A stretch of DNA of 64,000 nt from an uncultured Eubacterium sp. GTDB lineage: Bacteria; Bacillota; Clostridia; Lachnospirales; Lachnospiraceae. This document shows, one piece after another, positions 42,612 through 64,000 of this stretch (the stretch's first letter is position 1; the number at the start of each line of letters is the position of its first letter). The position numbers were made by a program, and so were the translations under genes. The stretch lies in NCBI GenBank assembly GCA_945946665.1, contig CAMEWO010000003.1, forward strand, positions 62,001 to 126,000, written 5' to 3'. Below the pieces are notes generated by a model. The model ran no database searches. It was not told where the DNA came from and saw only the letters and a list, made by a program, of their open reading frames with translations.

Positions 42612-42947
42612 ATGAAACTTTGGGTGAAGGGGCATGTGCTCATGTTAAAGAATAATGGTTTTTATCTTAGGGAAGTGGCTGGAATGTCATGGCTGCTCAT
42701 GAGAGGGGATTATCCAGCCTGTCAGAATGACAGTACTGCAGATGATTTGAAGAATGGGGAGTACGTAAGACCTGTGAGGCTTAATTCAACAGGGGCGTAC
42801 ATATGGAAACAGCTTGATGAGAAAAGGGAAAAAGAAGAAATTGCATGTAATATGGTAAAGGATTTCGGAATATCCTATAACGAGGCACTTACAGATGTGG
42901 ACGTTTTTATAAATGGGTTAATAAGTAATAATATCATGAGGAGTTAG
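42612..42947 (+). CDS. PqqD-like protein (start may be 42642)
   Basis: GFYLREVAGMSWLL...RLNSTGAYIWKQLDEKREKEEIACNMVKDFGISYNEALTDVDVFINGLISNNIM matches the PqqD fold pattern. Confidence 0.75.
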   Translation: MKLWVKGHVLMLKNNGFYLREVAGMSWLLMRGDYPACQNDSTADDLKNGEYVRPVRLNSTGAYIWKQLDEKREKEEIACNMVKDFGISYNEALTDVDVFINGLISNNIMRS

Positions 42948-42949
42948 TA

Positions 42950-45178
42950 ATGAGAGCGTTTATTATAGGGGGATATAATAAAGTAACAGCTGCTATTATC
43001 CAGAAATTAAGCAAGGAAGGACATGATATATATGTCTTAACAAGCAGCAAATCTGATGTTGGCGTATTCCAGAATGTATATGAGCATTACGTATTTTCAT
43101 ATGATAATGACTGTATTAAGGAAGTTTTTGAAAGTGTTAATCCGGATGTAACTATCTTTTCCGGAGCCTTCGATTCTAATTATGTATGGAGCAATGGATA
43201 TTCAGAGGTGGTTAATTTTGGCAATGGCCTGTTCAACTGTCTCAATGCCTTTGCTTTTCTTGGTCACGGCAGGTTTATTTACCTGTCTTCAAGTGAAGTT
43301 AAATTCATGACAAGAACTGAATACAAGGAAATAATTAATGCCCAGAGAGACACATATTCAGAGGGATTCTTTAAGCATGCTGATATATACAAGGCTGTGG
43401 CATTAAAAAATGGTGAGGCTTCCTGCACTAATGTAAGGCAGAACTGCAATTCTGATGTTATTACACTAAGGGTGGATAATCTGTGTTATGAGCCGGAAAA
43501 CCCTGCGGACCCTGTACTTAAAACAGATATGTGTGCAAGAATGCTGGTTGAGGCATATTCTGAAAAGAAGACAACAATTTCAGGAAAGTATTATTCGCCA
43601 ATATACATCAATGACTTTATTGAGGCGTTATATAACATAATTAACAAGTCTTCATTCCGCAATCCAATATACAGACTGGGCTGTGATGTGACAATAACCC
43701 AGGATGAGCTGTCTGATAAGGTGTGTGAAACGATGGAAGCCTTGGACGACAGCGTTCTGATTGCCAGGGATTACAATGTTAAAGAGGATTTTATGAATGA
43801 TGTACCTGTTACTGATGTATCTGAAGAAGTAAATGTGGTTGTCTTCAAAGACGCATCCAAGTGTGCAGATATAATGATTAATGCATTTAATCAGGATATT
43901 AATAAATTCATTGAGGTTGAAAAGAAAAAGAAAAACAGAAAAACAGAAATTTGGAATAATATCAAAAGGCTTGCTGCTGCAGCTTTGCCATTTGTTGAAA
44001 ATCTGGTATTATTCATTCCCTTCTTCATGCTGAATAACAGAGTAACGGGAAGCGCTTATTTTGCCAAGCTTGATCCATATCTTATATATGTGGAGATATT
44101 TGCTTTAGTATATGGACAGCAGCAGGCAGCCTTTTCAGCCGTGTTGTCTATTGCAGGATATCTGTTCAGACAGACCTATTCAAGAACTGGTTTTGATGTA
44201 ATGCTGGATTATAACACCTATGTATGGATGGCACAGCTTGTTATCCTTGGACTTTCTGTGGGATATTTAAGGGATAAGATACGGACAATACAGGAAGATA
44301 AGAAGGATGAGTCTGTGTATCTTGCCAGCCGACTTAAGGATATTGAAGATATTAATATGATCAATACCAAGCTAAAGGATGAACTCCAGACGCAGGTTAT
44401 TAACCAGACAGACAGTCTGGGAAAAATATTTGAGATTACAGCTGAATTGGACAGAGATGCTCCAGAGGAAGTATTCTTCCATGCAGCAGAGGTTGTGTCA
44501 GAACTTATGGATTGTAAAGATGTAGCAATTTACAATGTTTCAAACAGGAGCTTCGCCCGTCTGATGTCAGCTACATCACCTAAAGCCAGGTCTCTTGGAA
44601 ACTCTATTGAGTATACCAAATATACAGATATGTATGAGTCATTGATGAAGGGGGAGGTTTATGTAAACAAGAAGCTTACTAAGAATTACCCTCTTATGGC
44701 TGTTGCCATTGTGGAAAATGATGAGTTGAACTCAATTATCATGCTGTGGGATATTGCATGGGAAAAGATGAACATGGCACAGACTAACAGGTTCAGGGTA
44801 ATCAGCTTTATGATTCAGAATGCGGTGCTTAGGTCTGACAGATACATCGAGATGCTGGAGAATGAACGGTACATAGAGGGAACAAGAATACTTGATGCAG
44901 ATGCATTCAGGACGTTGCTGGATGCCTTCATTAACGCGCGAAACAAAGGTCTTGCATACTGTACTCTAATTAAGATAATACTCCCTGATAAGGATTTGAT
45001 AAAGGCTAATGACACTCTTGTGAAACTTGTCAGGAATTCAGATTACATAGGAAGCAACAATGATGGTAATGCTTATCTGCTTCTTGCTAATACCAACTCA
45101 CAGGATGCCGTGTACGTTGAAAAACGTATTGCAGATGCCGGATTTGAGTATGAAATGCTGGAAAGGCTGGAAAGGTAG
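42950..45178 (+). CDS. PelD-like protein: N-terminal NAD-epimerase-like domain, TM bundle, GAF, degenerate GGDEF
   Basis: Rossmann-like N-terminus MRAFIIGGYNKVTAAII; TM block LPFVENLVLFIPFFMLNN...; GAF-like region; C-terminus LVRNSDYIGSNNDGNAYLLL (RxxD plus degenerate GGDEF). Confidence 0.75.
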   Translation: MRAFIIGGYNKVTAAIIQKLSKEGHDIYVLTSSKSDVGVFQNVYEHYVFSYDNDCIKEVFESVNPDVTIFSGAFDSNYVWSNGYSEVVNFGNGLFNCLNAFAFLGHGRFIYLSSSEVKFMTRTEYKEIINAQRDTYSEGFFKHADIYKAVALKNGEASCTNVRQNCNSDVITLRVDNLCYEPENPADPVLKTDMCARMLVEAYSEKKTTISGKYYSPIYINDFIEALYNIINKSSFRNPIYRLGCDVTITQDELSDKVCETMEALDDSVLIARDYNVKEDFMNDVPVTDVSEEVNVVVFKDASKCADIMINAFNQDINKFIEVEKKKKNRKTEIWNNIKRLAAAALPFVENLVLFIPFFMLNNRVTGSAYFAKLDPYLIYVEIFALVYGQQQAAFSAVLSIAGYLFRQTYSRTGFDVMLDYNTYVWMAQLVILGLSVGYLRDKIRTIQEDKKDESVYLASRLKDIEDINMINTKLKDELQTQVINQTDSLGKIFEITAELDRDAPEEVFFHAAEVVSELMDCKDVAIYNVSNRSFARLMSATSPKARSLGNSIEYTKYTDMYESLMKGEVYVNKKLTKNYPLMAVAIVENDELNSIIMLWDIAWEKMNMAQTNRFRVISFMIQNAVLRSDRYIEMLENERYIEGTRILDADAFRTLLDAFINARNKGLAYCTLIKIILPDKDLIKANDTLVKLVRNSDYIGSNNDGNAYLLLANTNSQDAVYVEKRIADAGFEYEMLERLER

Positions 45179-45185
45179 GTAGCCT

Positions 45186-45998
45186 ATGAGTGAAGATGTA
45201 ATAATATTACTGCTGATTATTCTGGCTATTCCTGTTACCATTATTGTATATTACGCACTGGCCTTTTTTTTCAGAAAGCTTTTCTTCAGAAAACCTGTAG
45301 ATTTGTCAGACGTTGTATTCAGCAAGGATAGAATTGAGCAGATTGAGAAAAGCGATATGGAGCAGGAAAGGAGTATCGTTGCAGTCCAGGAGGCGGTAGC
45401 TGTCAGTGATTATCATAACCAGAGAGAGCTTATGATGAATATTATCCGTAAGGATATTAAGAAATCACTGGGTTCCATAACCTATGCACTTAACAGTGAG
45501 GATAGTGAAACATCACATTATGCAGCAGCAGCGTTAAGAGATGAGCTTGGAGAGTTCCGTAACAGCACCCACAAGCTGTACCAGACAATTAAGGATAGTA
45601 AACCCCTTGATCTGGATGCCTGTAATGAACTTGTAAATCTTATATATGACACAATCAGCCAGGATGTATTCAGGCAGTCTGAACAGAAAAGTTATGTATG
45701 GATGATGGAGGAAGTATTTACCAGGATGTATGAATATGATCCTAAAACCTTGCAGGACCATTATTACGAATGGATTGTATGTTTCCTTATGTCAATAGGA
45801 TTTCCTGAAGATGCTTATAAATGGTGTGAAAGAGCTGAAAAGGAAATCGGCGACAGGCTTTCCTCTTACAAATGTTATTTAAGATACTACTATGGAATGG
45901 ATGATGGAGAGAATTTCGTCAAAACCATGAATGAATTGAAAAAGTCTGATATTAAAATTGATCAGGATACGCTGGAGATTTTCAGGCTTTTTAGCTAA
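45186..45998 (+). CDS. PelE-like protein (N-terminal TM, helical repeat region)
   Basis: Single strong N-terminal TM then helical sequence; position between pelD-like and pelF genes. Confidence 0.55.
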   Translation: MSEDVIILLLIILAIPVTIIVYYALAFFFRKLFFRKPVDLSDVVFSKDRIEQIEKSDMEQERSIVAVQEAVAVSDYHNQRELMMNIIRKDIKKSLGSITYALNSEDSETSHYAAAALRDELGEFRNSTHKLYQTIKDSKPLDLDACNELVNLIYDTISQDVFRQSEQKSYVWMMEEVFTRMYEYDPKTLQDHYYEWIVCFLMSIGFPEDAYKWCERAEKEIGDRLSSYKCYLRYYYGMDDGENFVKTMNELKKSDIKIDQDTLEIFRLFS

Positions 45999-46022
45999 AA
46001 ATGCGCAGGGAAGGGAAATCTG

Positions 46023-48356
46023 ATGATGGATTTATCCAATACCCTTTGGTCAGTTCTGATTCTGGCACTGTACTCATTACTGGTTTTATGTGTGCCAGCA
46101 GCTGTACTTGGGAAAAAGCTGTCAAACAGAAGATTATGCGAAAGATTTCTGATATATGTTGTTTTTGGTAATTTCTATATTATTAATATTGTTTTTATAC
46201 TACAGCTGATACATATATCAAATATAGTTACATTAATTGCAGCGTACTTGTGTCCGATACTGTTTGTCATAATTAGACCACGCAGAAAAGAATTAAGGGA
46301 GATGCTTCTTCGGGGTGGACAGAATATAAGCAGGCTGCTCCGGGGAACACTGGGAGTTAAGACATTTATTAAGCAGACCTGGAACAGATTTATATGTTTT
46401 CTGATTCGTCAGGTTAAAAAATTGTCAGTGATTAACAACAGGGAAAATCTTGAAGGAATACTGTTGCTTTTACTGATTGTGCTGATAGGGTATATGTATG
46501 GCTCTAACAGTATAAAGAATTATGGATATCTGGCATCAGATGTGGCTGTTCATAATTACTGGATTAATGCCATGTCAGATAATAATATATTTGTTGCAGG
46601 TGTGTATCCACATGGTTTTCACTGTGTGATTTATTTTCTTCATGCAGTATTCAGGATTGATACGTCAGTGCTCTTAAGACTGTTTGCAATGACTAATGTA
46701 ATTTATGTGCATATGGTTTTATTTGCATTTATTAAATATTTAACTAAATCAAGATATGCAGCTTATGGGGCATTGGTTATATATGTGGCAGTCAATTTTA
46801 TGAACAGTGGATGTTACAGCAGATTCTCTGCCAATCTTCCCCAGGAATTTGGATTTTTGTTTCTGTTTCCAACACTTTACTTTCTGTTTGAATATATGAA
46901 ACATGAGAGAACAAAAGGAAAAAAGGACAGGGAATATAAGAGAAGAAAATATTTTGAATTGACGGGGGCAGCATGCAGCTTCTCACTATCTATTGCTGTG
47001 CATTTTTATGGAGCCATGATTGTGGGAATATTCTGTGTTGCCATAGTTTTTGCGTACTGGATGAGATTTTTCAGACCATCTTATTTTTTAAGGCTCATGG
47101 CTGCATTGATTGCAGGAGTTGTTATTGCCGCACTTCCAATGGGAGTATCTATTGCACAGGGCAATCATTTTCAGGGGTCAATCGGTTGGGGACTTAATGT
47201 AATTAAGGGCAACAGCAGTCAGACAACAGATGAACAGACTAAAAGCTCTACCTTTGATGAGGATTTAAAAAATGCAGGATTGTCTGTTGCAGATATAGGT
47301 GGAACAGTTATTGTTACACCAGACGAGGATGCCAAGACTGATACAAAAGAAATCACGTCTGCCGGTGAGAGGCTGCTTAGTGTGGCAGGCAGGATTTTTA
47401 ACAGGCTGAGTATTATGTATCAGGGATTTGTGTCTACTATCAGCAAGTCTGTGGTTTATTTCAAGGCAGAGATGTGGGCAGATGCTATGATTATTCTTGT
47501 AGCATTCATATCTGTTGCAGGAACAGTCATGGCTGTTATTGATAGAAAAGACTATGATTCAGATATTGGAAACCAGTATGTGACTATTTCCCTTGGTGTA
47601 TTATTTACAGGGCTGATATTAATTTCTTCATTTGTTAAGCTCCCATCAATTATGGATGTAAACAGATGCAGGATATATTTTATGTATTCCTTTACAATTC
47701 TTATAGGAATTGCATTGGATTTTCTTCCTGCTATTGTGACAAGATTTATTAAGAAGAGATGGATATATAATATTGCTTCCCTTGTTATATCTTTTACAGT
47801 TGGCTTGGTTCTGTTTTCAGAATATGGCGTAAGACCAGCAGCCATGAACTCACGGCTTAATATTCTCCAGACTAATGGTGCGGTGTATTGTATGTACAGC
47901 ATAAAGAACCAGAGCAAAGACAATAACTGGACTATTGTTTCTCCAACAGATGAATTAAGAATGCTGGACGGGGAAGGGTATCATTATGAGCTTTCAGATT
48001 TTGCAAGGAAACAGAAAAGGACGTCAAAGTTTACAATTCCAACTAAATATATATATTTCTTCATTGAGAAAAAACCGCTGGATTATACAGTAACAGGGCA
48101 GTACAGCGGCCAGGAGATTTCGAAAGAAGGGGCATCACAGCCATATGCAGATTATTATTCAGGAAATAATATGTATAAAGGAGATGCCAGATACATACTT
48201 ATGAGTAAAATGTATTACTGGGCACAGAGATATCAGGAAATCTACCCTGAAGACTTTACAGTGTATTATGAGGACGATGAGTTTGTGTGCTATAAACTAG
48301 TCCAGAATACATCATTTTTAAATAATCTGGTTGTTGATTATGGATATAACAATTAG
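46023..48356 (+). CDS. Large polytopic membrane protein, possibly GT-C-like
   Basis: 777 aa with many TM segments; early loop motif SDVAVHNYWINAM; inside the Pel-like operon. Confidence 0.5.
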   Translation: MMDLSNTLWSVLILALYSLLVLCVPAAVLGKKLSNRRLCERFLIYVVFGNFYIINIVFILQLIHISNIVTLIAAYLCPILFVIIRPRRKELREMLLRGGQNISRLLRGTLGVKTFIKQTWNRFICFLIRQVKKLSVINNRENLEGILLLLLIVLIGYMYGSNSIKNYGYLASDVAVHNYWINAMSDNNIFVAGVYPHGFHCVIYFLHAVFRIDTSVLLRLFAMTNVIYVHMVLFAFIKYLTKSRYAAYGALVIYVAVNFMNSGCYSRFSANLPQEFGFLFLFPTLYFLFEYMKHERTKGKKDREYKRRKYFELTGAACSFSLSIAVHFYGAMIVGIFCVAIVFAYWMRFFRPSYFLRLMAALIAGVVIAALPMGVSIAQGNHFQGSIGWGLNVIKGNSSQTTDEQTKSSTFDEDLKNAGLSVADIGGTVIVTPDEDAKTDTKEITSAGERLLSVAGRIFNRLSIMYQGFVSTISKSVVYFKAEMWADAMIILVAFISVAGTVMAVIDRKDYDSDIGNQYVTISLGVLFTGLILISSFVKLPSIMDVNRCRIYFMYSFTILIGIALDFLPAIVTRFIKKRWIYNIASLVISFTVGLVLFSEYGVRPAAMNSRLNILQTNGAVYCMYSIKNQSKDNNWTIVSPTDELRMLDGEGYHYELSDFARKQKRTSKFTIPTKYIYFFIEKKPLDYTVTGQYSGQEISKEGASQPYADYYSGNNMYKGDARYILMSKMYYWAQRYQEIYPEDFTVYYEDDEFVCYKLVQNTSFLNNLVVDYGYNN

Positions 48357-48403
48357 CGGGCCTGACATATTATGTGGATTTGAATGGCAGAAATGAGGGT
48401 AAT

Positions 48404-50218
48404 ATGGAATCGAAGATGATAACTAAACGCATATTCTTAACCATAAGTGTCATTATGTTTCTAGTGCTTTTCCTGTTCCAGTTTACTGGAATTGTGAGAA
48501 GAAAATATAATGATTATGAGAGTAACAGCTACAAGGAAGCTACGGCCACAAGCCTTACGAAATCTGATGAATTTCAGGTACTTACTAATGAGACAGACGT
48601 TATTTTAAGTACTAACAAATACATTGTATATATTGGTGATATAAGTGACAGATATGGAAACACAGTTTACCAGTGGTGCAGGCTTTCAAAGAAGAACCTT
48701 ATGGTATATTCTGACATAACCCAGTATCATGTAAGTGGATGGAACAAACCGGAGATGGTAATAGTTGATTCAAATTACATGGATTACGATACACAGATGG
48801 ATTACCTGGAAGAAATATCTGATATGGGTGTCAACGTTACATTGTGTACTCTGCCTGAATACGATATTACCCGTAAGAATAAGCGCCTTATGGAATACTG
48901 TGGTATATCAAACTGGGCAAGAAAGATTACTGCTTCAGGAATCAGAGTTTTTGAGGATTTTCTTCTTGGTGGAGAAATCTGGTTTACACCAGAAAATGAC
49001 CCGGAAGGAGTGTACAACAACTTAAACCCGGTAGTTCCATGGTATACAACTACCACAGGAACCAAAACATATATGGCGGCAGAGCTGTCAGATGAGTATG
49101 AGAACATTGATAATGAGGACCAGCCTTCCCTTATATGGCGAAAGCGCTGCAAAGACTCATATGTATTCTGCATTAATGGTGATTTTATAAGCGATATTTC
49201 AGGAATTGGAATATTAAGTGCTATTCTGTATGAATCAAAGGATTATGATATATATCCTGTGGTAGATGCGCAGACATTTGTAGTTGCCAATTTTCCATAC
49301 TTCTCCAGCGAGAATGACAATGCCATCCAGAAGTTTTATGGTAAGAATACATCTGGTTTTACTGAAAATGTAGTATGGCCGGATTTATCCAACCTTTCAA
49401 CAAAGCTTCAGGCAAAGATGACATTTATGGCTGCACCGCAGCTTAATTATTCAGACAGGAAACTTCCGTCTGTTAATGAACTGGATTATTTCTTCAGACT
49501 TATAAGAGAGCAGAAGGGTGAGGTAGGACTTACAAGTTCTAAGGCAACAGTTGATATTCTTGCAGATAAGCTGGAAGCTGATAAGGGATTTTACAGAAAT
49601 TATGTAGGCGGCTATGATTTCTTAAGCATCAGGCTTAAAAAAGATGAACTTCAGGGAATGAAGGATATTAACAATGATATTCTTAAGGACGTCAAGACAT
49701 ATGTTACAGGTTCAGATGAATATGTGGGCAGCAATCTTTTCTCATATTATGATGACGATAAGCTGTTGGTTGAGTCTCCTGTAAGTGCAGAAAAATACAA
49801 TTTCTCAGAGGATTTTAAGTTGAGATGCATTAATACTTCATTGGCATATACAAATATAGATATGGATGTCTGGGACATATATTTCCCAACTGATGAAGAA
49901 AAGCTGTGGAACAAATATATTAAAAATGTTTCTTCTTCAGTTGAAAATCTCTTAAAAGGCAGCAAAAAACTGACCCAGTGTACAGTTTCTGAACTGGATA
50001 AGAGAGTTCGGGAGATGTTGAGTCTTAATTACAGTTACAGAATGGATAATTCTTCTCTTGTGGTAGATATAGAGGGAAAACAGGAAATTTCAAGGTTCTT
50101 GTATAGAAGCCATAAGGATGAGATTGAATCTGTTGTTGGAGGCACATTTACCAAGGTAGAAGATGGCGCATACATAATAACCGCCACAGAGAAGAGGATT
50201 GAGATTAATTTCAAGTAA
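48404..50218 (+). CDS. Membrane-anchored PelA-like / DUF2194-like protein
   Basis: N-terminal TM anchor, then extracytoplasmic domain with INGDFISDISGIGIL; located immediately before pelF. Confidence 0.5.
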   Translation: MESKMITKRIFLTISVIMFLVLFLFQFTGIVRRKYNDYESNSYKEATATSLTKSDEFQVLTNETDVILSTNKYIVYIGDISDRYGNTVYQWCRLSKKNLMVYSDITQYHVSGWNKPEMVIVDSNYMDYDTQMDYLEEISDMGVNVTLCTLPEYDITRKNKRLMEYCGISNWARKITASGIRVFEDFLLGGEIWFTPENDPEGVYNNLNPVVPWYTTTTGTKTYMAAELSDEYENIDNEDQPSLIWRKRCKDSYVFCINGDFISDISGIGILSAILYESKDYDIYPVVDAQTFVVANFPYFSSENDNAIQKFYGKNTSGFTENVVWPDLSNLSTKLQAKMTFMAAPQLNYSDRKLPSVNELDYFFRLIREQKGEVGLTSSKATVDILADKLEADKGFYRNYVGGYDFLSIRLKKDELQGMKDINNDILKDVKTYVTGSDEYVGSNLFSYYDDDKLLVESPVSAEKYNFSEDFKLRCINTSLAYTNIDMDVWDIYFPTDEEKLWNKYIKNVSSSVENLLKGSKKLTQCTVSELDKRVREMLSLNYSYRMDNSSLVVDIEGKQEISRFLYRSHKDEIESVVGGTFTKVEDGAYIITATEKRIEINFK

Positions 50219-50238
50219 AAGAAAGGCATAGGTTTGCT

Positions 50239-51666
50239 ATGAAGATATGTTTAGTGGCAGAGGGATGCTATCCATATGTAATTGGTGGTGTTTCAGGCTG
50301 GATTAACAACCTTATAACTTCATTTCCAGAGTATGAATTCATTATGCTGGCTATTATATCTGACAGGTCAGTCAGTGGCAAGTTCAAATATACTCTTCCT
50401 GAGAACCTGACAGAGGTTCATGAAGTATATCTTAATGATAAAGAGTATGTTACCAGAAAAAGCAAGAAATATAATAAAGCCCGTCTTTCCAATGAGAATC
50501 TGAAGGCTCTGGAGTCATTGCTGATAGGAAGGGATACTGACTGGGAACGCCTTACAAAACTGTTCCAGAGTCATAAGATTTCACTGGATCAGCTTCTGAT
50601 GGGACCGGACTTCCTGGAAGCATCTATGAGAAATTATGAGTTAAAGCATGGTGAAATTGTTTTCTCTGATTTCCTCTGGACTATGAGGTCTATGTACCTT
50701 CCATTATTCCTTTCAATGCAGTCGGATATTCCAAGAGCAGATATATACCACTGTGTTGCCACTGGTTATTCAGGAATAATGGGTGGCATGGCTAAGATTC
50801 TATATCCTGAGAGCAGGTTGATTATATCAGAACATGGTATCTATACAAGAGAGCGTGAGGAAGAGATAATTAAATCGGACTGGATACAGAGCATATACAA
50901 GAATATCTGGATTGACCAGTTTAAGAAAATGTCTCTTCTTGCCTATGACAAGGCGGATGTTGTTACTTCGCTGTACGCAAGGGCAAGGGAGTTACAGATT
51001 GAGCTGGGTTGTAAGGAAGCAAAGACAATAATTACCCCTAATGGAATTGACCCTGCCAGATTCGCAAATATACCGCAGAAAGACCCTGATGACCAGTATA
51101 TTAATGTGGGGGCTGTTCTTCGTGTTACACCAATTAAAGATGTAAAGACCATGATTATGGCATTTGGATATGCCAAGGTAATAGAGCCAAAACTGAAACT
51201 GTGGATTATGGGTCCTACAGATGAGGACCCTGATTATGCCAAGGAGTGTTTTACTCTGGTGGATGACATGAAGATTAAAGATGTTGTGTTCACTGGAAGA
51301 ATCAACACCAGCGAGTACATTGGCAAGATGGATTTTACGATTCTTACAAGTATAAGTGAAGGCCAGCCTCTTACCATACTTGAAGGATATGGGGCCAAGA
51401 AACCTGTAATTGCTACTGATGTTGGTAACTGCAGGGGACTTATATATGGTGAGGGGGATAATTTCGGTCAGGCAGGAATACTTACCCACATTATGAATGT
51501 GGAGGAGATAAAGGATGCCATTGTATATCTGGCACAGCATCCTGATGTGTGCAGACAGTATGGCGAGAATGGATATAATCGTTTTATGAGCAAATACACC
51601 ATTCAGGATATGAAGAATACCTACGCAGATATATATAAAAAATTATCCACAGTAAAGGAGAGATAG
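50239..51666 (+). CDS. pelF: GT4 glycosyltransferase PelF
   Basis: MKICLVAEGCYPYVIGGVSGWINNLI; ISEHGIYTREREEEI; ITPNGIDPARFA; TSISEGQPLTILEGYGAKKPVIATDVGNCRGLI. Confidence 0.9.
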   Translation: MKICLVAEGCYPYVIGGVSGWINNLITSFPEYEFIMLAIISDRSVSGKFKYTLPENLTEVHEVYLNDKEYVTRKSKKYNKARLSNENLKALESLLIGRDTDWERLTKLFQSHKISLDQLLMGPDFLEASMRNYELKHGEIVFSDFLWTMRSMYLPLFLSMQSDIPRADIYHCVATGYSGIMGGMAKILYPESRLIISEHGIYTREREEEIIKSDWIQSIYKNIWIDQFKKMSLLAYDKADVVTSLYARARELQIELGCKEAKTIITPNGIDPARFANIPQKDPDDQYINVGAVLRVTPIKDVKTMIMAFGYAKVIEPKLKLWIMGPTDEDPDYAKECFTLVDDMKIKDVVFTGRINTSEYIGKMDFTILTSISEGQPLTILEGYGAKKPVIATDVGNCRGLIYGEGDNFGQAGILTHIMNVEEIKDAIVYLAQHPDVCRQYGENGYNRFMSKYTIQDMKNTYADIYKKLSTVKER

Positions 51667-51670
51667 GGCA

Positions 51671-53179
51671 ATGGCTGGAATTGGAATTAAGTTAAACAGG
51701 TTCTTTGGTAAAAGCTCTGTTTCATCATACGTTGCAGGAGCAGGATACAGCGTAATTACAACTGTTGCACCAATGATAGTGGTTATTGGTGATATTATGC
51801 TTATGAGATGGGCCCTTGGATATACAGATGGAACCACATATAATAACAGAGAACTGTTTCAGGTTACAATTCTTTACATATTCATGTTTACATTGCTGGC
51901 ATCATCGCCATTTAACGCGGTGTTGTCTAAATATGTATCAGATGAGATATATAAAGAGCAGTACAGCAACATTATGGCGGCTTTCAGAGTGGGTATTGTT
52001 CTTAATATGGTTCTGAACTGTGTTCTTATTATCCCATTTACACTTCATGAGTACTATGTAGGACATGTGGACATTATCTACATTCTTGCTTCCATAGTCT
52101 GCTTTATTGCACTGTCACTGACATTCTATACAGTGCTTTACCTTTCGCTGTGTAAGGATTATGGAAAAATATCACAGTTTTATGTTATAGGAATGGCAGT
52201 GGCGTTCTTTTTATCACTTTTCCTTGTCAGGATTATTGGAATGGAGATAACCCTTGCAATGATTATTTCCCTGGCTGTGGGATTTATAGTAATATCTTCT
52301 CTTTCCTATGCCCTGTTACGACATTACTTTAGTAATAACAGCAGAAAATATCTGGATGTTTTGAGGTATATGTTCAGATTCTGGAAGCTGGTGCTTGCCA
52401 ATACATTCTATACACTGGGATTATTCATCCATAACTTTGTATTCTGGAATTCGGGACTTAGGAATGTGGTGGTAAACAGCTTTGTATGTGCGGAATCCTA
52501 TGATTTTGCCACATGTCTTGGTATGTTTACTAACCTGTCAGCAAGTATACTGTTCGTATCACTGATTGAGATGCATTTTAACCAGAGGTACAAGGATTTT
52601 TCCCAGTCAATTATTGGTGGAAGACTGATAGATATTAAGAAAACCAAGGCCAGAATGTTCAGAATGCTTACAGAGATGCTTATGACAATGGTTCGTATAC
52701 AGTTTATTGTATCAACTGTTATTTTTCTTGTATGTATAATTGTACTACAGAGACTGGGATTTTCAGGAATGATTATACAGCTTTATCCTTGTCTTGCTGC
52801 AGGATATTTCATGGTGTATATAATGTATGCAGTGTTCATGTTCCTGTACTATTTCAATGATCTGGACGGAGCGTTGATGACATCACTTATATTCTGTCTG
52901 GTTACACTGGCAGGAAGTATTGTCAGCATGAAGCTGGATGTTATCTGGTATGGACTGGGACTTGTGATAGGTTCATTTCTTGCATGGACATACGGATATT
53001 TCAGGCTGAAATATATTGAGAACACCTTACATATACATATTTTCTGTAATGGTAATATTCTTGCCAAGGTTAAGGGCAAAAGACCATCCGGAGAGGTGTA
53101 CCATGGGGTTGTTGTAGAGGATAGCCGGGGGTATGAGAAGGCAAAGAATGTAAAGATTAAAAAGCAGAAAAGAAGATAA
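51671..53179 (+). CDS. pelG: Exopolysaccharide transporter PelG
   Basis: MAGIGIKLNRFFGKSSVSSYVAGAGYSVITTVAPMIVVIG; polytopic; directly after pelF. Confidence 0.9.
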   Translation: MAGIGIKLNRFFGKSSVSSYVAGAGYSVITTVAPMIVVIGDIMLMRWALGYTDGTTYNNRELFQVTILYIFMFTLLASSPFNAVLSKYVSDEIYKEQYSNIMAAFRVGIVLNMVLNCVLIIPFTLHEYYVGHVDIIYILASIVCFIALSLTFYTVLYLSLCKDYGKISQFYVIGMAVAFFLSLFLVRIIGMEITLAMIISLAVGFIVISSLSYALLRHYFSNNSRKYLDVLRYMFRFWKLVLANTFYTLGLFIHNFVFWNSGLRNVVVNSFVCAESYDFATCLGMFTNLSASILFVSLIEMHFNQRYKDFSQSIIGGRLIDIKKTKARMFRMLTEMLMTMVRIQFIVSTVIFLVCIIVLQRLGFSGMIIQLYPCLAAGYFMVYIMYAVFMFLYYFNDLDGALMTSLIFCLVTLAGSIVSMKLDVIWYGLGLVIGSFLAWTYGYFRLKYIENTLHIHIFCNGNILAKVKGKRPSGEVYHGVVVEDSRGYEKAKNVKIKKQKRR

Positions 53180-53200
53180 ATCCAGAAAGTGAGGAAAGCT

Positions 53201-53581
53201 ATGATGCCGTTAGTATTAAGGATGATTATGGTTGTTGCAGGATGTTTATTTCTGATACTTAATTTCGTTACATATGTAAAGAAAAATCTTACTGAAAAAT
53301 TTACATGGATGTGGACATTTTTTTGCGTTGTAATGATTCTGTCAGGTATTGTTCCGGGGTTAAACAACTGGAGCTTCCAGTTTAATTCCTGGGGTTATAT
53401 GGCATTGTGTATTATCCTGGTTCTTATAGTTCAGTTTATATTTATAATAACTAAGGAGATTGCCAATCTGAAGAAAAGAAACAAGGAGCTTGCTATGCAT
53501 GTTTCCCTGCTTAACCAGGAAAATGAGCGTATTCTTGCACAGCTGGAGAAACTTACAGGAAAGACAAAGGCGGAACTTTAA
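53201..53581 (+). CDS. Small membrane protein with 3 TM and C-terminal coiled coil (DUF2304-like)
   Basis: Three hydrophobic segments then KEIANLKKRNKELAMHVSLLNQENERILAQLEKL. Confidence 0.6.
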   Translation: MMPLVLRMIMVVAGCLFLILNFVTYVKKNLTEKFTWMWTFFCVVMILSGIVPGLNNWSFQFNSWGYMALCIILVLIVQFIFIITKEIANLKKRNKELAMHVSLLNQENERILAQLEKLTGKTKAEL

Positions 53582-53592
53582 AGGAATTGCCC

Positions 53593-54807: not shown

Positions 54808-54834
54808 ATAAATTATTTGAGGGGAGGAGTCCAT

Positions 54835-55602
54835 ATGCAGAAGGAGGTTCTGATAATAATACCTGCATATAATGAGGAACAGAATATTGACAAGGTACTT
54901 GATAACCTGACTACACCGGAGATTTCGTCAGTGTGTGATATCCTTGTTATGAATGATGCTTCCTCTGATAATACTAACTGGAAAGCAAAGAAGAGACATA
55001 TAGCAGTTGTTACTCATGTTTTTAATCTGGGATACGGTGGCGCATTACAGCTTGGCTATAAATACGCAATAAGATACCGGTATAAGTATGTTATCCAGAT
55101 GGATGCAGATGGACAGCATGATGCATGTAATGTGCTTAATATATATAACACATTAAAAACCAAAGTAAATGGCTCTTATCCTGACATTGTGCTGGGTTCA
55201 AGATATCTTCCGGGAAGCGCACCTTATCCGGTTTCATTTATGAAGAATATCGCTTATAAAATGTTCCGCTTTATTATCAAGGCGACCACCGGGAAGACCA
55301 TTATGGACCCTACAACAGGATTGCAGGGCCTGAGCTGGAGAGCCATGGTATATTATTCAAAGTTTGGTAATTTTGATGACAGATATCCTGATGCCAACAT
55401 GATTACAGGTATGATTCTTAAGGGATATAATGTAGTGGAAATTCCAGGGGTTATGCATGTAAGAACTGCTGGAAAGAGCATGCATTCAGGATTAAAGCCT
55501 ATTGGGTATATGTTTCATATGTTTTTAAGTATTCTTGGAATACTTATCCGTCAGAACAAAGAGAAAAACGAGCCAAAAGCAGTGGAGAAAAATAATGTAT
55601 AA
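54835..55602 (+). CDS. GT2 glycosyltransferase
   Basis: VLIIIPAYNEEQNIDKVLDNL; VIQMDADGQHD; DPTTGLQGLSWRA. Confidence 0.9.
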   Translation: MQKEVLIIIPAYNEEQNIDKVLDNLTTPEISSVCDILVMNDASSDNTNWKAKKRHIAVVTHVFNLGYGGALQLGYKYAIRYRYKYVIQMDADGQHDACNVLNIYNTLKTKVNGSYPDIVLGSRYLPGSAPYPVSFMKNIAYKMFRFIIKATTGKTIMDPTTGLQGLSWRAMVYYSKFGNFDDRYPDANMITGMILKGYNVVEIPGVMHVRTAGKSMHSGLKPIGYMFHMFLSILGILIRQNKEKNEPKAVEKNNV

Positions 55603-56764
55603 TGTTACTTGTGAGAATATAGAAACACCTTCAAGAGGGTGGTACAGCATATTTCCATTTATATTATCCAGGACTGTGGATTATGGGGAATTAAGGTGGA
55701 GCCTTAAGGATGATGAGAATCTGGTACTTGCCCGTGTTGATATTAATGAATTTAAGGAAACTCCTATAAGTGAGGAAGCACTTGTTAACCTCCAGAAAAT
55801 GTTTGACTTTTTCAGGCAGTATAATAAGGAGATAATTCTCCGGTTTGTGTATGATACAGACGGAAATGGATTAATGAATGAGCCCCAGTCAATCAGTATA
55901 ATTAAGAACCATATGGAGCAGCTTGGACCTGTAATCAGAAAGAATGCAGGACAGATACTAACACTTCAGGGGCTGTTTTTCGGAAGCTGGGGAGAGATGC
56001 ACACATCAAGATATTCCAACAGGGATGACATATGTGACCTGGCTGTGTGTTTATTTGAGGCTACAGATGGAAGCGTAAACATGGCTTTAAGAAAACCTCA
56101 GCATATCAGGGAGTTTATAGACAAACTGGATATGATGCTTTACAGGAGAAAAGAGGAGCTGGTAAGGCGTATTGGATTGTATGATGATGCCATGCTTTCC
56201 TCTGACACAGACATGGGTACCTTCTCTATAGGAGATTCTTCCCAGAATATAGAGTTTTTTAAAGAATTGTCATGTTTTAATCTTATAGGGGGAGAGACAG
56301 TTGCTGATAATCCTATAAATGATGGGATTAATGCTGTCAATGGACTGAGAGAAAGATGTGTTACATATCTTAACAGCCAGTATGATATGGCTGTTATTGA
56401 AAAATGGAAAAAACAGACCATTCCGGAAAGGATTCCAGGCAGCAAAAGAGCCAGGGAGATATCAGTATATGATTATGTTACGAAATATATGGGATACCGG
56501 CTTGAACTTGAGACAGTGAAATCACAGACCTTTGGCAAAAATGTTTTTATTCACATAAAGAATACAGGGCTTGCGCCATTTTATGGTCCGGTAAAGCTTA
56601 TCATTAATGATGATGCAGAATCAGAAAAATCTGGACTGGTTATTAAACCAGGCCAGACGGAGATTTTTACATTCAACAAAAGTCAGGTTCCAAAGAACTT
56701 TACTCTTTCCTGTGTCCGAATATCAGATGGTAAACAGATTGGTATATACAACGTAGCGCAGTAG
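55595..56764 (+). CDS. DUF4832/DUF4874-like (glycoside-hydrolase-like) protein, no signal peptide
   Basis: PSRGWYSIFPF...LVLARVDINEFKETPIS...IILRFVYDTDG...LQGLFFGSWGEMHTSRY; 8-bp overlap with the GT2 gene. Confidence 0.6.
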   Translation: MYNVTCENIETPSRGWYSIFPFILSRTVDYGELRWSLKDDENLVLARVDINEFKETPISEEALVNLQKMFDFFRQYNKEIILRFVYDTDGNGLMNEPQSISIIKNHMEQLGPVIRKNAGQILTLQGLFFGSWGEMHTSRYSNRDDICDLAVCLFEATDGSVNMALRKPQHIREFIDKLDMMLYRRKEELVRRIGLYDDAMLSSDTDMGTFSIGDSSQNIEFFKELSCFNLIGGETVADNPINDGINAVNGLRERCVTYLNSQYDMAVIEKWKKQTIPERIPGSKRAREISVYDYVTKYMGYRLELETVKSQTFGKNVFIHIKNTGLAPFYGPVKLIINDDAESEKSGLVIKPGQTEIFTFNKSQVPKNFTLSCVRISDGKQIGIYNVAQ

Positions 56765-56766
56765 TA

Positions 56767-58206
56767 TTATTGTAAAGCCAGACTGCCAAGACAGTATCCG
56801 TTACCTTCAAGATCAAGATTATTGGCAAGCTTAATGGTTTCACCAGTAGCAGCATCAGTGATTTTAATATAGAATGTTAACGTCCCATTTTCCGGAACAG
56901 AAGCAGGAACCGAAAGGTTTACGCTGGAAGTCTGTCCGGGATACCATGTTCTTACACAGGTCTGGTCGGATACATCTACAACATCATAAGTTGAATTCCC
57001 TTCTGAATCTGTGGATTCAACGGTTACATACACATTGAAGTTTCTATAAGCAGGGGCAAAGCCTACATTGTCAATTGATAATTGCAGTGACGCTGTGTTT
57101 TTGTAGGATTTGCAGGCAATAGATGCACTTCGCAATACATATCTGTAACCTAAATGAGTGCTGATGAAGTGTCTTGCAGTTGAACCATAAAAGGCATCGT
57201 TGCCGGTATATATCTGTCGGCTCCATTTGTTCATAACACTTAAATCATGGTCTTTATTAAGATATGACACATGCATTGAGGCCAGGTCAACTGCGGCGTT
57301 ATCAATGTCGTTGTAAGGGTTGTCAAGAACAGCTTCACCTCCATTAGGAACCATCAGGCAAAGAGTATTCTGGTATTGTATCTCCTGTGCACGGCTGCCT
57401 TTGGATTTGTAATTGTCACTGGTAAACTGCATATCAGAAGAACCATAAGTTCCTACATCAATTGATGAACCCAGCATTCCGTCATTGTATAATCCGATTC
57501 TGAAATTACCGGAATTCCCTTTTACGGTGCTTTTTACATCTGGAAGAGAAGCAGTTCCCAGTATTGTTCTAAGATGCTGTGGAGTTCTTACTGAAAGATA
57601 TATTCTTCTGTCAATGATACTGTTAAGATAATTTGCAAGCTCAGTCATATGTTCTTCATCCATATAATGTGAACTGTGCATCTCCGCAAAATCCCCAACA
57701 AATATACCCTGCATAATATATACAGATGATACATGACTGTTAATAATGGCAGCCACCTGTGACATGTGGGTTTTGATTGTCTCGAATTCTGAAGGCTCTG
57801 TTTCCATTGCCTTTCCATCCCAGTCATATAAGAAACGTACTATAAGGTTATGTCCCTCATTCTCCCAGAGATTCAGTGTATGGTCAAGCTGGGCAAGGGC
57901 ATTTGCTGTCAATGGACTATTGTTGAAATTCTTGAGATTGATTTCAAGAAGAATCATCCTTGTATTAGTGCTGTTTGAAAGATATTTGGATGTGGTGCTG
58001 TCAAACTGGTCTGGTGAGCCATCTGTAAGGGAATAGCCATACATGCTGTACCATCCACAGTAGGGATTACCAAGTTCATCAGTAGATTCGCTGTATTCGA
58101 AGCTGTCAGCTACTGTCACAACTCCGGAATTGTATATATCAACTCCTGTTACAGCGACAGGAATAAGTACTATAATGCTTAATATTGTGGCAATTATTTT
58201 TTCCAT
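56767..58206 (-). CDS. Secreted DUF4832/DUF4874-like paralog
   Basis: N-terminal signal/TM segment; YCGWYSMYGYSL...MILLEINLKNFNNSPLT...LIVRFLYDWDG...MQGIFVGDFAEMHSSHY aligns with the previous protein. Confidence 0.65.
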   Translation of the reverse strand: MEKIIATILSIIVLIPVAVTGVDIYNSGVVTVADSFEYSESTDELGNPYCGWYSMYGYSLTDGSPDQFDSTTSKYLSNSTNTRMILLEINLKNFNNSPLTANALAQLDHTLNLWENEGHNLIVRFLYDWDGKAMETEPSEFETIKTHMSQVAAIINSHVSSVYIMQGIFVGDFAEMHSSHYMDEEHMTELANYLNSIIDRRIYLSVRTPQHLRTILGTASLPDVKSTVKGNSGNFRIGLYNDGMLGSSIDVGTYGSSDMQFTSDNYKSKGSRAQEIQYQNTLCLMVPNGGEAVLDNPYNDIDNAAVDLASMHVSYLNKDHDLSVMNKWSRQIYTGNDAFYGSTARHFISTHLGYRYVLRSASIACKSYKNTASLQLSIDNVGFAPAYRNFNVYVTVESTDSEGNSTYDVVDVSDQTCVRTWYPGQTSSVNLSVPASVPENGTLTFYIKITDAATGETIKLANNLDLEGNGYCLGSLALQ

Positions 58207-58304
58207 TTATATAAACCTTTCTAAGATATTTTGTTATTATAGCATTAAAATCTAATAAATGCTATAATGCTGTTATAATTATTAATTTTTTGAGGAGAAC
58301 AGCC

Positions 58305-59867
58305 GTGAATGAAAAAAGCCGTATGGAGTATTCTGCGCATAATACTACGGTAGGACTAATATCAAGAATTACTGCTATTCTTTGTGGTTATATTGTAAGA
58401 ATAGTATTTACCCATGTCCTGTCAGAAACATATGTAGGAATCAATGGACTGTTTACCAATATTCTCAGTATTCTGTCTCTGTCAGAGATGGGGATTGAGT
58501 CAGCCATATCCTATGCTCTCTATAAGCCTATTGCCGAGAATGACCAGGGGCAGCAGAGAGCAATAATACAGCTGTACAAAAAGCTTTATTGTTATGTTGC
58601 CGGATTTGTAATGGCAGCGGGAATTATGGTAATACCTTTTCTTAATATTATTATTAAGAATAAAGGAGATATAGATGACCTTACTTATATTTACATACTT
58701 TATCTCGTGAATTCTGCTGTATCATATCTTCTTATATACAAGAAAACATTGATTGATGCACACCAGCAGAAATATGTGGGCGTGATGGTTAAGGCTGTAT
58801 CATGGGTTATCCAGGATATAGTCCAGATTGTTGTGCTCCTTACCACCAGGAATTTTATTCTGTACCTGTACATATATATTATAACCACAGTTTTGTCCAA
58901 TATATACATTTCCAGAAAAGCAGAGAAGATGTATCCCTTCATTAAAGAGAAGGCTGATGAACCTGTTGAGGCTGAGACAAAAAAGAGTATTGTAAAGAAT
59001 ATAAAAGCCATGTTCATGCATCAGTTTGGAAATGTGGTGGTAAATAATACCGACAATCTGCTTATATCTTTCTTTGTAGGTATTGTGGAAGTAGGATGCT
59101 ATTCCAATTATTATCTTGTAATTGGGTCAATCAAGCAGGTGCTTAATGAGGCTGTAGATGGAATATCAGCTAGTGTGGGAAATCTCGGAGTGACATCTGA
59201 TACAGAGCATATTAAAAAGGTATATAAGGCTGCACTGTTCTTTAACCATTGGGTGTTTGGATTGTGCTCTGTATGTATATTTGAGCTTATTAGTCCATTT
59301 GTAGAGTTAAGCTTTGGAAAACAGTTTGTATTCCATTATTCAATAGTATTTATTCTTTGCCTTAATTTTTATATTCAGGGCATTGAGAAGGCAAGCAATA
59401 TATTCCATAACTCTCTGGGACTGTTCTGGTTTGACAGATACAAATCCCTTATTGAGGCGGTGCTGAATCTGGCTATTTCCATTGTGCTGGCTCCACGTCT
59501 TGGAATTTTCGGTATTTTCCTGGGCACAACAATCAGCACAGTTTTAACAACATTGTGGGTAGAGCCTTATATCATTTATAAATATGAGTTCAAAGAAAAT
59601 GTTGTAAGACACCTGCTTCTTATGGGGGTGTATATTCTACAGACTGCACTTGTATGGTGGGCTTCCAATAAAGCAGCCATATATATGGTTGGCGTATTTG
59701 GTGTGACAACACAAATTGGAATAATGGCTGTGAAGCTTGTGACAGTTATTGTGGTTGCAGATGCTATATATCTGGCTGCCAACATTAAGAATAAGAGCTT
59801 CCATTATCTTCTTGACAAGTTTATAAGGCTTGTAAGAGAAAGGATTAAAAGAAAGCATGAAGAATAG
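58305..59867 (+). CDS. Polysaccharide flippase (Wzx/MATE-like), GTG start
   Basis: EYSAHNTTVGLISRITAILCGYIVRIVFTHVLSETYVGINGLFTNILSILSLSEMGIESAI. Confidence 0.88.
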   Translation: MNEKSRMEYSAHNTTVGLISRITAILCGYIVRIVFTHVLSETYVGINGLFTNILSILSLSEMGIESAISYALYKPIAENDQGQQRAIIQLYKKLYCYVAGFVMAAGIMVIPFLNIIIKNKGDIDDLTYIYILYLVNSAVSYLLIYKKTLIDAHQQKYVGVMVKAVSWVIQDIVQIVVLLTTRNFILYLYIYIITTVLSNIYISRKAEKMYPFIKEKADEPVEAETKKSIVKNIKAMFMHQFGNVVVNNTDNLLISFFVGIVEVGCYSNYYLVIGSIKQVLNEAVDGISASVGNLGVTSDTEHIKKVYKAALFFNHWVFGLCSVCIFELISPFVELSFGKQFVFHYSIVFILCLNFYIQGIEKASNIFHNSLGLFWFDRYKSLIEAVLNLAISIVLAPRLGIFGIFLGTTISTVLTTLWVEPYIIYKYEFKENVVRHLLLMGVYILQTALVWWASNKAAIYMVGVFGVTTQIGIMAVKLVTVIVVADAIYLAANIKNKSFHYLLDKFIRLVRERIKRKHEE

Positions 59868-61101: not shown

Positions 61102-61140
61102 TTTCCTTACGGAAAAACTATCTGGAATGGAGAAAGAATC

Positions 61141-61578: not shown

Positions 61579-61611
61579 GTATATGGCATTACATGACTGC
61601 CGGGTGAAGAA

Positions 61612-63339
61612 ATGAGAAGAGAATTTTTTAAGAAATATCACAATGCTATTAATTACTTTGTAGGCTTGGTGGCTATACTGTGCGCTATACTTGGTATGGG
61701 CATATTGTATAATCTTGCTTCAGGGAAAGGCCATACAATAGAAAAAACCATGCTTAATAACTCATGGATTGTGGAATTTGATAATAAAGTATATTCAGAT
61801 GTAGCTTTGGATGAATTTTCCCTTGACAGGCTGATAAATCGTGGAGAGAAGGTTGTGCTAAGAGGGTATCTTCCAGGTGAGTGGGATTATTATTCCCCAA
61901 CAATTATTACAGAAACAAGGAACTGTGCAATATCAGTCTATATCAATGGAGATTTAAAGTACAGTTATGGTGAGGATATTTTAGAGAGAAGGGGACTTCT
62001 GGGGAGCGGCAATCATTTTATTCCTCTTGATAATAATGATAAGGGCGGTTTCATAAGAATTGAACTTACGGCGGGAGATTTCTCAGGATTTTCTTCAATT
62101 GGAAATGTTACTCTTGCAGAGTACAGGGATGCTTTTTCGGAATATATAGATGACAATCTGCTTTTTCTTGTTATAGGAAGTTTCTTCATTTTACTGGGCA
62201 TATTCCTTGTGCTTATTGGTGGGATATTCATTTTTATTAAGCTGGATGCACATGGCCTGTTTTGTCTTGGTATTCTTGCATTTTGCGTAGGAGGGTGGAC
62301 TACATCATATCACAGGCTTGCGGTAATATATGGCGGTTCAATGTCAGAATCTACCAGAATGGAATACCTGTGTCTTATGGCTGGCTGTGTGGCACTGTTT
62401 ATGTTTTTCCGTGAGTCAGTCATGAGCATGAAGAATAATTCTGCCTTAAAAATAGCATACAGAATACTTCTGTGGACTGAGATTCTGTCATTTTCAGTGA
62501 TTCTTGTCCTTGATATGACTTCAGTAATGCATATGCCTTCATTTTTATTATTCATTCAGTTATGCATGTGTGTTGAAGCAGTTTATATACTTTCTTTGAT
62601 GATAGTACTTATCAGACATGGAAGGAAGGATGGAAAAATAATATTAATAGCATTCAGTATATTTGTTGCATGTGTTGGCATTGATGCCCTTAGCTATGCT
62701 GCCAGTGTATATTGGGGGATTAACACCTATTCTGATGGAAGACTGGCTTCTCTGGGAACAGTGATTCTGGTGGCATTTCTTATATGTCATTTTACCTTAA
62801 GCATTTTTACAAAATACAAGGATAACCATGAAAAAGAAGTATTATATAAGCTGGCATATTCGGACGAACTGACAAAGCTGTATAACAGACGGTATTGTGA
62901 GAGGATAATGGATGAGCTTACTGAGAAACAGCAGCATTATACTATCTTCAGCTTTGACCTTAATAACCTTAAGAAGATTAATGACAGCATGGGACACCAG
63001 TATGGAGATGCACTGATTTCAGGCTTTGCCAATATCCTTAAAGATACATTTTCAGAAGATGCGGTTGTGGGAAGAATGGGTGGAGATGAATTCATTGTTC
63101 TTCTTGATGATAAGAATATTCACAGCCACGACCATAGTAAAGATATTAAGAAATATCAAGAAATACTTGAAAGATATAACCGGCAGGAGGAGAATTTCCA
63201 GTTTTCTGCATCATTTGGATATGCGGATATGGAGGAAATCCAGCCTGTTGACGGAGTGGTTGATTCAAGAAAGGTGTATGCCCTGGCGGATAACAGAATG
63301 TATGAGATGAAAAGCAAGAATAAGGATGCCAGGCATTAA
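61612..63339 (+). CDS. Membrane diguanylate cyclase (sensor + 7TM + GGDEF)
   Basis: TM bundle; YSDELTKLYNRRYCERIM; FDLNNLKKINDSMGHQYGD; GRMGGDEFIVLL. Confidence 0.92.
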   Translation: MRREFFKKYHNAINYFVGLVAILCAILGMGILYNLASGKGHTIEKTMLNNSWIVEFDNKVYSDVALDEFSLDRLINRGEKVVLRGYLPGEWDYYSPTIITETRNCAISVYINGDLKYSYGEDILERRGLLGSGNHFIPLDNNDKGGFIRIELTAGDFSGFSSIGNVTLAEYRDAFSEYIDDNLLFLVIGSFFILLGIFLVLIGGIFIFIKLDAHGLFCLGILAFCVGGWTTSYHRLAVIYGGSMSESTRMEYLCLMAGCVALFMFFRESVMSMKNNSALKIAYRILLWTEILSFSVILVLDMTSVMHMPSFLLFIQLCMCVEAVYILSLMIVLIRHGRKDGKIILIAFSIFVACVGIDALSYAASVYWGINTYSDGRLASLGTVILVAFLICHFTLSIFTKYKDNHEKEVLYKLAYSDELTKLYNRRYCERIMDELTEKQQHYTIFSFDLNNLKKINDSMGHQYGDALISGFANILKDTFSEDAVVGRMGGDEFIVLLDDKNIHSHDHSKDIKKYQEILERYNRQEENFQFSASFGYADMEEIQPVDGVVDSRKVYALADNRMYEMKSKNKDARH

Positions 63340-63363
63340 ACAACAACGGAGAAGAGGATGACT

Positions 63364-64000
63364 ATGAATAAAAATAAAAAGAACGGGGGAAGGGGATTAC
63401 TTTCCCTTCTTCTTATTTTAGTAATATTTGTGGCAGGAATTGTGGCTGTGGGTTTCTATATGAATGGAGGTTTACAGCATAAGTCCTTCGTGGATGGTGA
63501 ACTGGAAATCCATTATATTGACATCGGACAGGGAGACTGTACCTTGGTGAAATGTGGTGAACATGCCATGCTTATAGATGCAGGTGAGAACGACAAGGGT
63601 ACACAGATTCAGGATTACCTGAACAGCCAGAATGTCAAAAAACTTGATTATATAATTGGAACTCATCCTCACAGTGACCACATAGGAGGCATGGATGTAA
63701 TTATATATAAGTTTGACTGTGATGTAGTAATGATGCCGGATGTTGAAAGTGATACCAAAACTTACAGAGATGTAGTAAATGCAATGAAAGCTAAGAATTA
63801 CACCAATACGGTGCCGGTGCCGGGACAGCAGTACAGTCTGGGAGATGCAACATTTACAATACTGGCACCTTCAAGACAGTATGATAATATGAATGACAAT
63901 TCCATTGCATTGGTTCTTACATATGGTGACAGGAAATTCCTGTTTACGGGAGATGGGGAAGAAGATGCGGAAAAAGATATTGTAAATACAGGAATTAATA
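63364..64000 (+). CDS. ComEC/Rec2-like MBL-fold hydrolase, truncated by window end
   Basis: N-terminal TM; LEIHYIDIGQGDCTLVKCGEHAMLIDAGE; GTHPHSDHIGGMD; FTGDGEEDAEKD. Confidence 0.88.
   Translation, partial: MNKNKKNGGRGLLSLLLILVIFVAGIVAVGFYMNGGLQHKSFVDGELEIHYIDIGQGDCTLVKCGEHAMLIDAGENDKGTQIQDYLNSQNVKKLDYIIGTHPHSDHIGGMDVIIYKFDCDVVMMPDVESDTKTYRDVVNAMKAKNYTNTVPVPGQQYSLGDATFTILAPSRQYDNMNDNSIALVLTYGDRKFLFTGDGEEDAEKDIVNTGIN

Follow-up and report, generated by a model that had tools for sequence, protein, structure and literature searches.

The gene cluster described here lies between positions 42612 and 63339 of a 64,000-nucleotide stretch of DNA, hereafter the window, from an uncultured Eubacterium sp. 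of the Lachnospiraceae (contig CAMEWO010000003.1, positions 62,001 to 126,000), and is, on balance, probably a Pel-type exopolysaccharide system whose backbone is branched outside the cell instead of being de-N-acetylated. As a variant of Gram-positive Pel it is conserved throughout its lineage. Domain searches recover every gene that a first-pass annotation of the DNA had named, at about the positions given, including a PqqD-like gene at the head, two extra glycosyltransferases (GT), a membrane GT-C protein, a pair of DUF4832 proteins, a Wzx-type flippase, a PF14907 protein, an S26-like peptidase and a membrane diguanylate cyclase. The annotation's Pel-like, cyclic di-GMP (c-di-GMP)-type, composite system is likewise supported, and the "modified Pel-related polymer" that it suggested can be sharpened to predicted side-chain glycosylation combined with loss of de-N-acetylation. 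The DUF2304 gene, a key part of the side-chain module, had been left unnamed.

Pel core and predicted side-chain module

The homologues of pelD, E, A, F and G occupy 42950-53179 and are flanked by accessory genes. The features that bear on the polymer are as follows.

42950-45178, +, PelD, with an N-terminal short-chain dehydrogenase/reductase (SDR)/epimerase-like domain (PF01370, E 1e-7), a transmembrane part, a GAF-like domain and a degenerate GGDEF domain with the I-site RNSD
45186-45998, +, helical protein in the PelE position, no Pfam family over cut-off
46023-48356, +, 777-aa GT-C-fold membrane glycosyltransferase, predicted side-chain transferase (GacL-like role; AlphaFold2 pLDDT 86.9)
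48374-50218, +, homologue of the PelA deacetylase domain (PelADA; DUF2194, PF09960, 82 bits), catalytic residues lost, a pseudo-deacetylase
50239-51666, +, PelF glycosyltransferase (DUF3492 plus GT4; NCBIfam NF038011, 351 bits, cut-off 100; PF11997, 253 bits)
51671-53179, +, PelG exporter (PF16933, 442.5 bits over the full length, cut-off 29)
53189-53581, +, DUF2304 small membrane protein, GacJ-like (PF10066, 39.8 bits, cut-off 25.5)
53587-54807, +, GT4 glycosyltransferase, possibly extending a lipid-linked side chain (PF00534, 97 bits)
54817-55602, +, GT2 of the polyprenyl-phosphate-sugar synthase class by curated and PDB matches (GacI-like role)
55595-56764, +, glycosidase-like DUF4874 plus DUF4832 protein without signal peptide, the cytosolic copy (PF16173, 158 bits; PF16116, 112 bits)
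56767-58206, -, glycosidase-like DUF4874 plus DUF4832 protein with an N-terminal hydrophobic segment, the secreted, SIR_1591-like copy (PF16116, 179 bits)
58290-59867, +, Wzx-type flippase (GacK-like role; PF01943, 31.5 bits, 3 bits above the cut-off of 28.2)

The identities of PelF and PelG are firm, both assignments holding under profile searches. As the first-pass annotation had proposed, they are preceded by PelD-like, PelE-position and PelA-like proteins, and a Pfam domain search of the locus open reading frames (ORFs) finds no PelB or PelC domain.

The accessory genes resemble a streptococcal decoration system. In group A Streptococcus the GT2 protein GacI together with GacJ produces undecaprenyl-phosphate N-acetylglucosamine, the Wzx-type protein GacK is thought to flip this lipid and the GT-C enzyme GacL adds the sugar extracellularly to the rhamnan (PMC8327497, PMC8035078); the DUF2304 domain is "typical of GacJ-like proteins" (PMC8327497). 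By component type, the GT2, DUF2304, Wzx-type and GT-C proteins of the window match GacI, GacJ, GacK and GacL, and all four are present in one cluster. The 777-aa protein belongs to no Pfam family, and because a search with its sequence profile gave no believable match among solved structures, its fold was predicted. In a Foldseek search the ten best matches of its model are GT-C enzymes throughout, including the yeast and human oligosaccharyltransferase (OST)/STT3, DPY19 and AftA, with E values of 1.5e-5 to 4e-4. Across 38 relatives of 23-46% identity D173, H177 and E275 never vary; D173 is a conserved acidic residue in a loop that we infer to lie on the outer side of the membrane. The best PDB match of the GT2 protein is dolichol-P-mannose synthase (5MLZ, E 4e-9), followed by ArnC and GtrB.

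Co-occurrence of the module with pel

Pel loci were drawn from 299 genomes of the family, 390 of the class and 399 of the phylum, together with 80 named loci near the window PelG, and all their ORFs were searched with profiles grown from the window proteins. Co-occurrence was counted in the 93 distinct loci flanked on both sides by 7.5 kb or more of sequence, and as the named loci were chosen for their closeness to the window the frequencies are overstated, the all-or-none pattern not. GT-C and GT2 occur together in 76 of these loci, GT-C alone in four, GT2 alone in none and neither in 13, while GT2 and DUF2304 are both present in 71, with GT2 alone in five, DUF2304 alone in none and neither in 17. 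The GT4 gene too belongs to this nearly all-or-none set, and the flippase is confined to loci with GT-C (48/80). The reverse holds for another accessory set known from the literature, CotH, VTC and DUF4956, which are nearly confined to loci lacking the module (27/28, 25/26 and 24/25, respectively). In the even sample of 299 family genomes PelG is found in 53 and the GT-C protein in 32, 29 of which have PelG; the remaining three comprise one pel locus truncated within pelF and two assemblies that are 74-77% complete. Many relatives thus keep the extra genes next to pelFG, as the reading of the first-pass annotation requires, and the accessory genes form a conserved set with pel, which is new here. 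Cultured carriers of this cluster type include Coprococcus catus (L155, L037) and Blautia luti (L119).

Some loci of this type depart from the window in their gene content. Locus L192 (5722-13558), a pel locus of the module type, ends partway through pelF; its genome is 99% complete and has no PelG, and the cluster appears to be decaying. A Stealth-type phosphotransferase gene (PF11380/PF17101) is present in 38 module loci (e.g. L124, 20553-21452) and in no other loci, is not in the window, and could provide a phosphosugar decoration. The module-type locus L034 (1524-3665, minus strand) encodes a protein that combines a GT2 with a polysaccharide pyruvyl transferase domain, and a related ORF cluster occurs in 21 further module loci.

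A PelA homologue that has lost its active site

Pel production in Pseudomonas aeruginosa and Bacillus cereus requires de-N-acetylation, which is the source of the positive charge of Pel. The first-pass annotation had described a PelA-like protein, and the homology stands, since profiles of module-type PelA and of the intact family align over 510 columns (hhalign 99.8%, E 4e-30); it should not be taken for a working PelA, because the catalytic residues are missing. In B. cereus PelADA, D262 is the base, D263 and the HxxxH pair bind Zn, and R458 and H488 are also used (PMC13254593). A profile of ten PelA proteins from module-less loci matches the crystal structure 9ZAU with E 3.5e-109 and brings these sites into register. 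Searched as a single sequence against solved structures the window protein gives no match, and a strong match to 9ZAU is obtained only with the mixed or the canonical profile. Its AlphaFold2 model (pLDDT 91.3) is closest in Foldseek to the deacetylase Agd3 (6NWZ, E 2e-11, TM-score 0.50).

The catalytic Asp, the Asp-His-His Zn site and the His are replaced in the window protein and in 101 of 101 PelA proteins from module loci. Typically the two Asp residues become A or V and then N, the first His becomes S, the second varies and the last His becomes D. The set is intact in 33 of 40 proteins from loci without the module, and five of the seven others are second copies next to another DUF2194 gene. 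Degenerate second copies beside an intact one are seen in the module-less loci L064 (6218-8101), L065 (6209-8101) and L068 (11901-13817), and L066 and L082 likewise carry two DUF2194 copies.

The dead protein is nonetheless retained: its fold and transmembrane anchor are kept, and many positions outside the catalytic set are strongly conserved. Since B. cereus PelADA in addition has a carbohydrate-binding N-terminal domain and a predicted contact with PelG (PMC13254593), the dead esterase probably guides the polymer chain.

Proposed mechanism and alternatives

In the scheme proposed here, whose reactions, order of events, sugar and guide role are all deduced from gene content, co-conservation, the loss of catalytic residues and predicted folds, PelE, PelF, PelG and a c-di-GMP-gated PelD would make and export an unbranched GalNAc-type backbone that, unlike in other Pel systems, stays un-de-N-acetylated. 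The membrane-anchored dead esterase would probably bind the emerging chain and present it to the 777-aa GT-C enzyme. Meanwhile the cytosolic GT2, aided by DUF2304, would load a sugar onto undecaprenyl phosphate, GT4 may lengthen this lipid-linked sugar and the Wzx-type protein would flip it across the membrane, so that the GT-C enzyme could attach it extracellularly to the backbone, in the manner of GacI/J/K/L with the group A carbohydrate. The DUF4832 glycosidases would then trim the polymer.

One alternative is that the backbone itself has changed: PelF would use a sugar without an N-acetyl group, the deacetylase would have decayed for want of a substrate and the extra transferases would build a non-Pel heteropolymer. 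This explains a dead PelA without invoking a guide, and the Roseburia loci have, in the text of the published account, already been suspected of making another polymer (PMC7112168). It nevertheless seems unlikely, for about 75 PelF positions are conserved at 95% or more in both the module and the non-module groups and just five group-specific changes are seen, all of them mild. The putative catalytic residues of the DUF4832 proteins, Glu175 and Glu291 in the numbering of the secreted copy, are also invariant across 17 canonical, 85 cytosolic and 61 secreted sequences, and a PelA that had lost its purpose is hard to square with the conservation described above. The few and mild PelF changes and the unchanged glutamates suggest the same backbone as in other Pel systems. 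With synthesis and trimming apparently unchanged, de-N-acetylation gone and a side-chain set present, branching of Pel is favoured over a change of backbone.

Alternatively, pel might merely adjoin an unrelated GT-C/GT2/DUF2304/flippase pathway whose target is a different acceptor, for example a wall polymer or lipoteichoic acid. The streptococcal module proteins do act on other polymers, and the GT-C gene changes its place within the cluster; its commonest place, however, is between pelE and pelA, canonical pel loci lack the module and the GT-C family hardly occurs outside pel loci, which makes this arrangement a little less credible still than a changed backbone. Both ligases and side-chain transferases are found in the GT-C superfamily, and with OST among the best structural matches the 777-aa protein could instead be a ligase that joins the Pel chain to an anchor, either a lipid or the wall, yielding a cell-bound capsule without side chains. 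This is improbable given that the GT2/DUF2304 pair is of the polyprenyl-monophosphate-sugar class, which is what side-chain transferases use, and that no LCP-type domain is found among the locus ORFs.

Several observations weigh against extracellular branching of a Pel backbone. No flippase is seen near 32 of the 80 GT-C-bearing loci, the structural matches of the GT-C model reach TM-scores of just 0.31-0.43 to any one structure, and the best NCBIfam match of the GT2, the polyprenyl-phospho-GalNAc synthase PpgS, scores 69.6 bits, far under its cut-off of 370. In the PelG tree the module loci fall into a single clade, but for one fragmentary locus inside it (SH-aLRT 100), and the coincidence of module and dead esterase therefore counts as one event kept in descendants, not as many independent ones. 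Residues are lost without the module in two true exceptions, L165 (part of the deacetylase motif) and L175 (on an incomplete contig), and such loss is therefore possible without the module. Finally, what is known of these loci is genomic.

A fuller form of the branching proposal, offered tentatively and with some way to go before it could be called probable, is that a branched neutral Pel is made in the Lachnospiraceae by one lineage that ceased to de-N-acetylate its polymer, retained the inactive deacetylase, docked to PelG, to guide the chain, and acquired a machine that adds side chains from a lipid-phosphate sugar. If true, this would be, to our knowledge, the first synthase-dependent biofilm polysaccharide decorated by such a machine. 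No earlier proposal of a side-chain mechanism for pel loci of this kind was found in the literature searched, subscription papers and supplementary figures lying outside that search. The chemistry of Pel would then be swapped rather than fixed across a large group of gut bacteria, the product of Roseburia-type pel loci would become testable gene by gene, and a natural pseudo-esterase would allow binding by PelA to be studied apart from catalysis.

PelD, PelE and the DUF4832 pair

PelD matches epimerases through the profile of its SDR part (E 4e-38). As its C-terminal profile gives only weak diguanylate cyclase matches in the PDB (E 0.011), the assignment rests on architecture, position and the I-site. 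An RxxD I-site at the right spacing is found in 93 of 93 PelD proteins from module loci and in 29 of 29 from other loci, counting those that cover the site (122 in total), which supports PelD as a c-di-GMP-type regulator with predicted binding at the retained I-site. The profile of the PelE-position protein picks up its counterpart downstream of PelD both in module loci and in loci that lack the module.

DUF4832 proteins beside pel are already known, and SIR_1591 is a glycoside hydrolase that acts on Pel-dependent aggregates (PMC12345266). In most module loci the cytosolic copy follows the GT2 gene and retains its glutamates. A hydrolase of the Pel type in the cytosol would be out of the ordinary.

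Probable leader-peptide genes

Three further genes resemble those of ribosomally synthesised and post-translationally modified peptide (RiPP) pathways.

42612-42947, +, PqqD-like, RiPP recognition element-type protein (PF05402, 44.7 bits, cut-off 23.4), the sole PqqD in the genome
59857-61101, +, PF14907 nucleotidyltransferase-like protein (109 bits), the sole copy in the genome
61141-61578, +, S26 signal-peptidase-like protein (TIGR02228, 45.1 bits, just under the cut-off of 51.9)

The RiPP-style genes of the first-pass annotation are thus present; their description as accessory genes of the polysaccharide locus is not supported in that form, and they are probably a separate leader-peptide processing set that acts in trans and is located here by chance. 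At pel loci PqqD and PF14907 occur together in 35 cases, PF14907 alone in two and PqqD alone in 24. A small protein with the leader YxKPxV...EGVYAASG is encoded nearby in 14 relatives, 12 of whose loci hold both genes. A leader-type precursor peptide was sought beside the PqqD, PF14907 and S26 genes within the window and was not found, and no domain of a lasso/RiPP maturation enzyme (B2 protease, macrocyclase) is present among the locus ORFs. Elsewhere in the same genome at least three ORFs bear such leaders, L187 (1462-1902, -), L188 (1492-1818, +) and L191 (1297-1566, -). All three start with the lasso-leader-like YEKPV..., two continue with VYMASG and one lies beside an ABC transporter. Because the only PqqD and PF14907 genes of the genome sit in the pel locus, these ORFs may, judging from their leaders, be substrates of those two proteins in trans.

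A family of about 140 aa with the leader KxYxxPxVxxNxExxEGVYAASG and a Cys/His-containing remainder is found near PF14907 in Lachnospiraceae pel loci. Its members include L036 (17708-18187), L097 (20663-21088), L122 (19051-19545), L129 (19612-20031) and L143 (20052-20501), and no Pfam family was found for the one member searched.

Genomic setting and regulation

The window belongs to a 2.45-Mb genome (contig C3), and the closest PelG proteins are those of Lachnospira metagenome-assembled genomes (61%). Eleven plus-strand genes span 42612-56764 with intergenic gaps of -8 to 24 bp, in the order PqqD, PelD, PelE, 777-aa membrane protein, DUF2194, PelF, PelG, DUF2304, GT4, GT2 and DUF4874/DUF4832. 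They are followed by the minus-strand secreted DUF4832 gene and then, on the plus strand, by the PF01943 flippase, PF14907, the S26-like peptidase and the cyclase. Because of the minus-strand gene the cluster is not a single operon.

42541-42569, +, sigma-70-like promoter TTGACC-17-TATAAT, 42 bp before PqqD (11/12 match, by consensus match alone)
61612-63339, +, 7TMR-DISM membrane diguanylate cyclase, GGDEF intact, without I-site (PF00990, 102 bits; PF07695, 34.5 bits)

The cyclase is seldom linked to other pel loci (9/93). An inverted repeat, ATATGAGGG...CCCTCATAT (42519-42553), overlaps the -35 region before PqqD and could serve as an operator or terminate the EamA gene that lies upstream. 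A search of the window found no c-di-GMP riboswitch; a Clostridiales-1 RNA match at 42339-42520 is below threshold.

Comparison with known systems

Gram-positive Pel loci have been published, and the layout of PelD with SDR, transmembrane, GAF and GGDEF parts was reported for clostridia by Whitfield et al. 2020 (PMC7112168). The window shares the PelD/PelE/PelADA/PelF/PelG order, an I-site PelD and the lack of PelB and PelC with the pelDEADAFG loci of B. cereus ATCC 10987 and Streptococcus intermedius (PMC7112168, PMC12345266, PMC13254593), and the SDR-type PelD and the DUF4832 hydrolase with clostridia and streptococci. Unlike pelDEADAFG, its PelA is without catalytic and Zn-binding residues, it adds GT-C, GT2, DUF2304, GT4, the flippase and a second, cytosolic DUF4832 protein, and it is without CotH, VTC and DUF4956.

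The window is most likely of the same kind as the Roseburia loci, in which, according to the text of that account, pel lies inside larger capsule- or teichoic-like clusters and the polymer is left unclear (PMC7112168). Both have pel among extra polysaccharide genes in Lachnospiraceae, and by the text description the arrangement (S7 Fig) is probably the same; that text states neither a side-chain mechanism nor a loss of deacetylase residues. Mycobacterial PpgS is the best curated match of the window GT2, yet so far below the cut-off that the sugar cannot be inferred from it. Likened by component type, the GT2 lipid-sugar synthase, DUF2304, Wzx-type flippase and GT-C proteins recall GacI/GacJ/GacK/GacL as well as EpaI/J and WpsA/B (PMC8327497, PMC8035078), with the difference from GacI-L that the window backbone would be exported by PelG in place of an ABC transporter.

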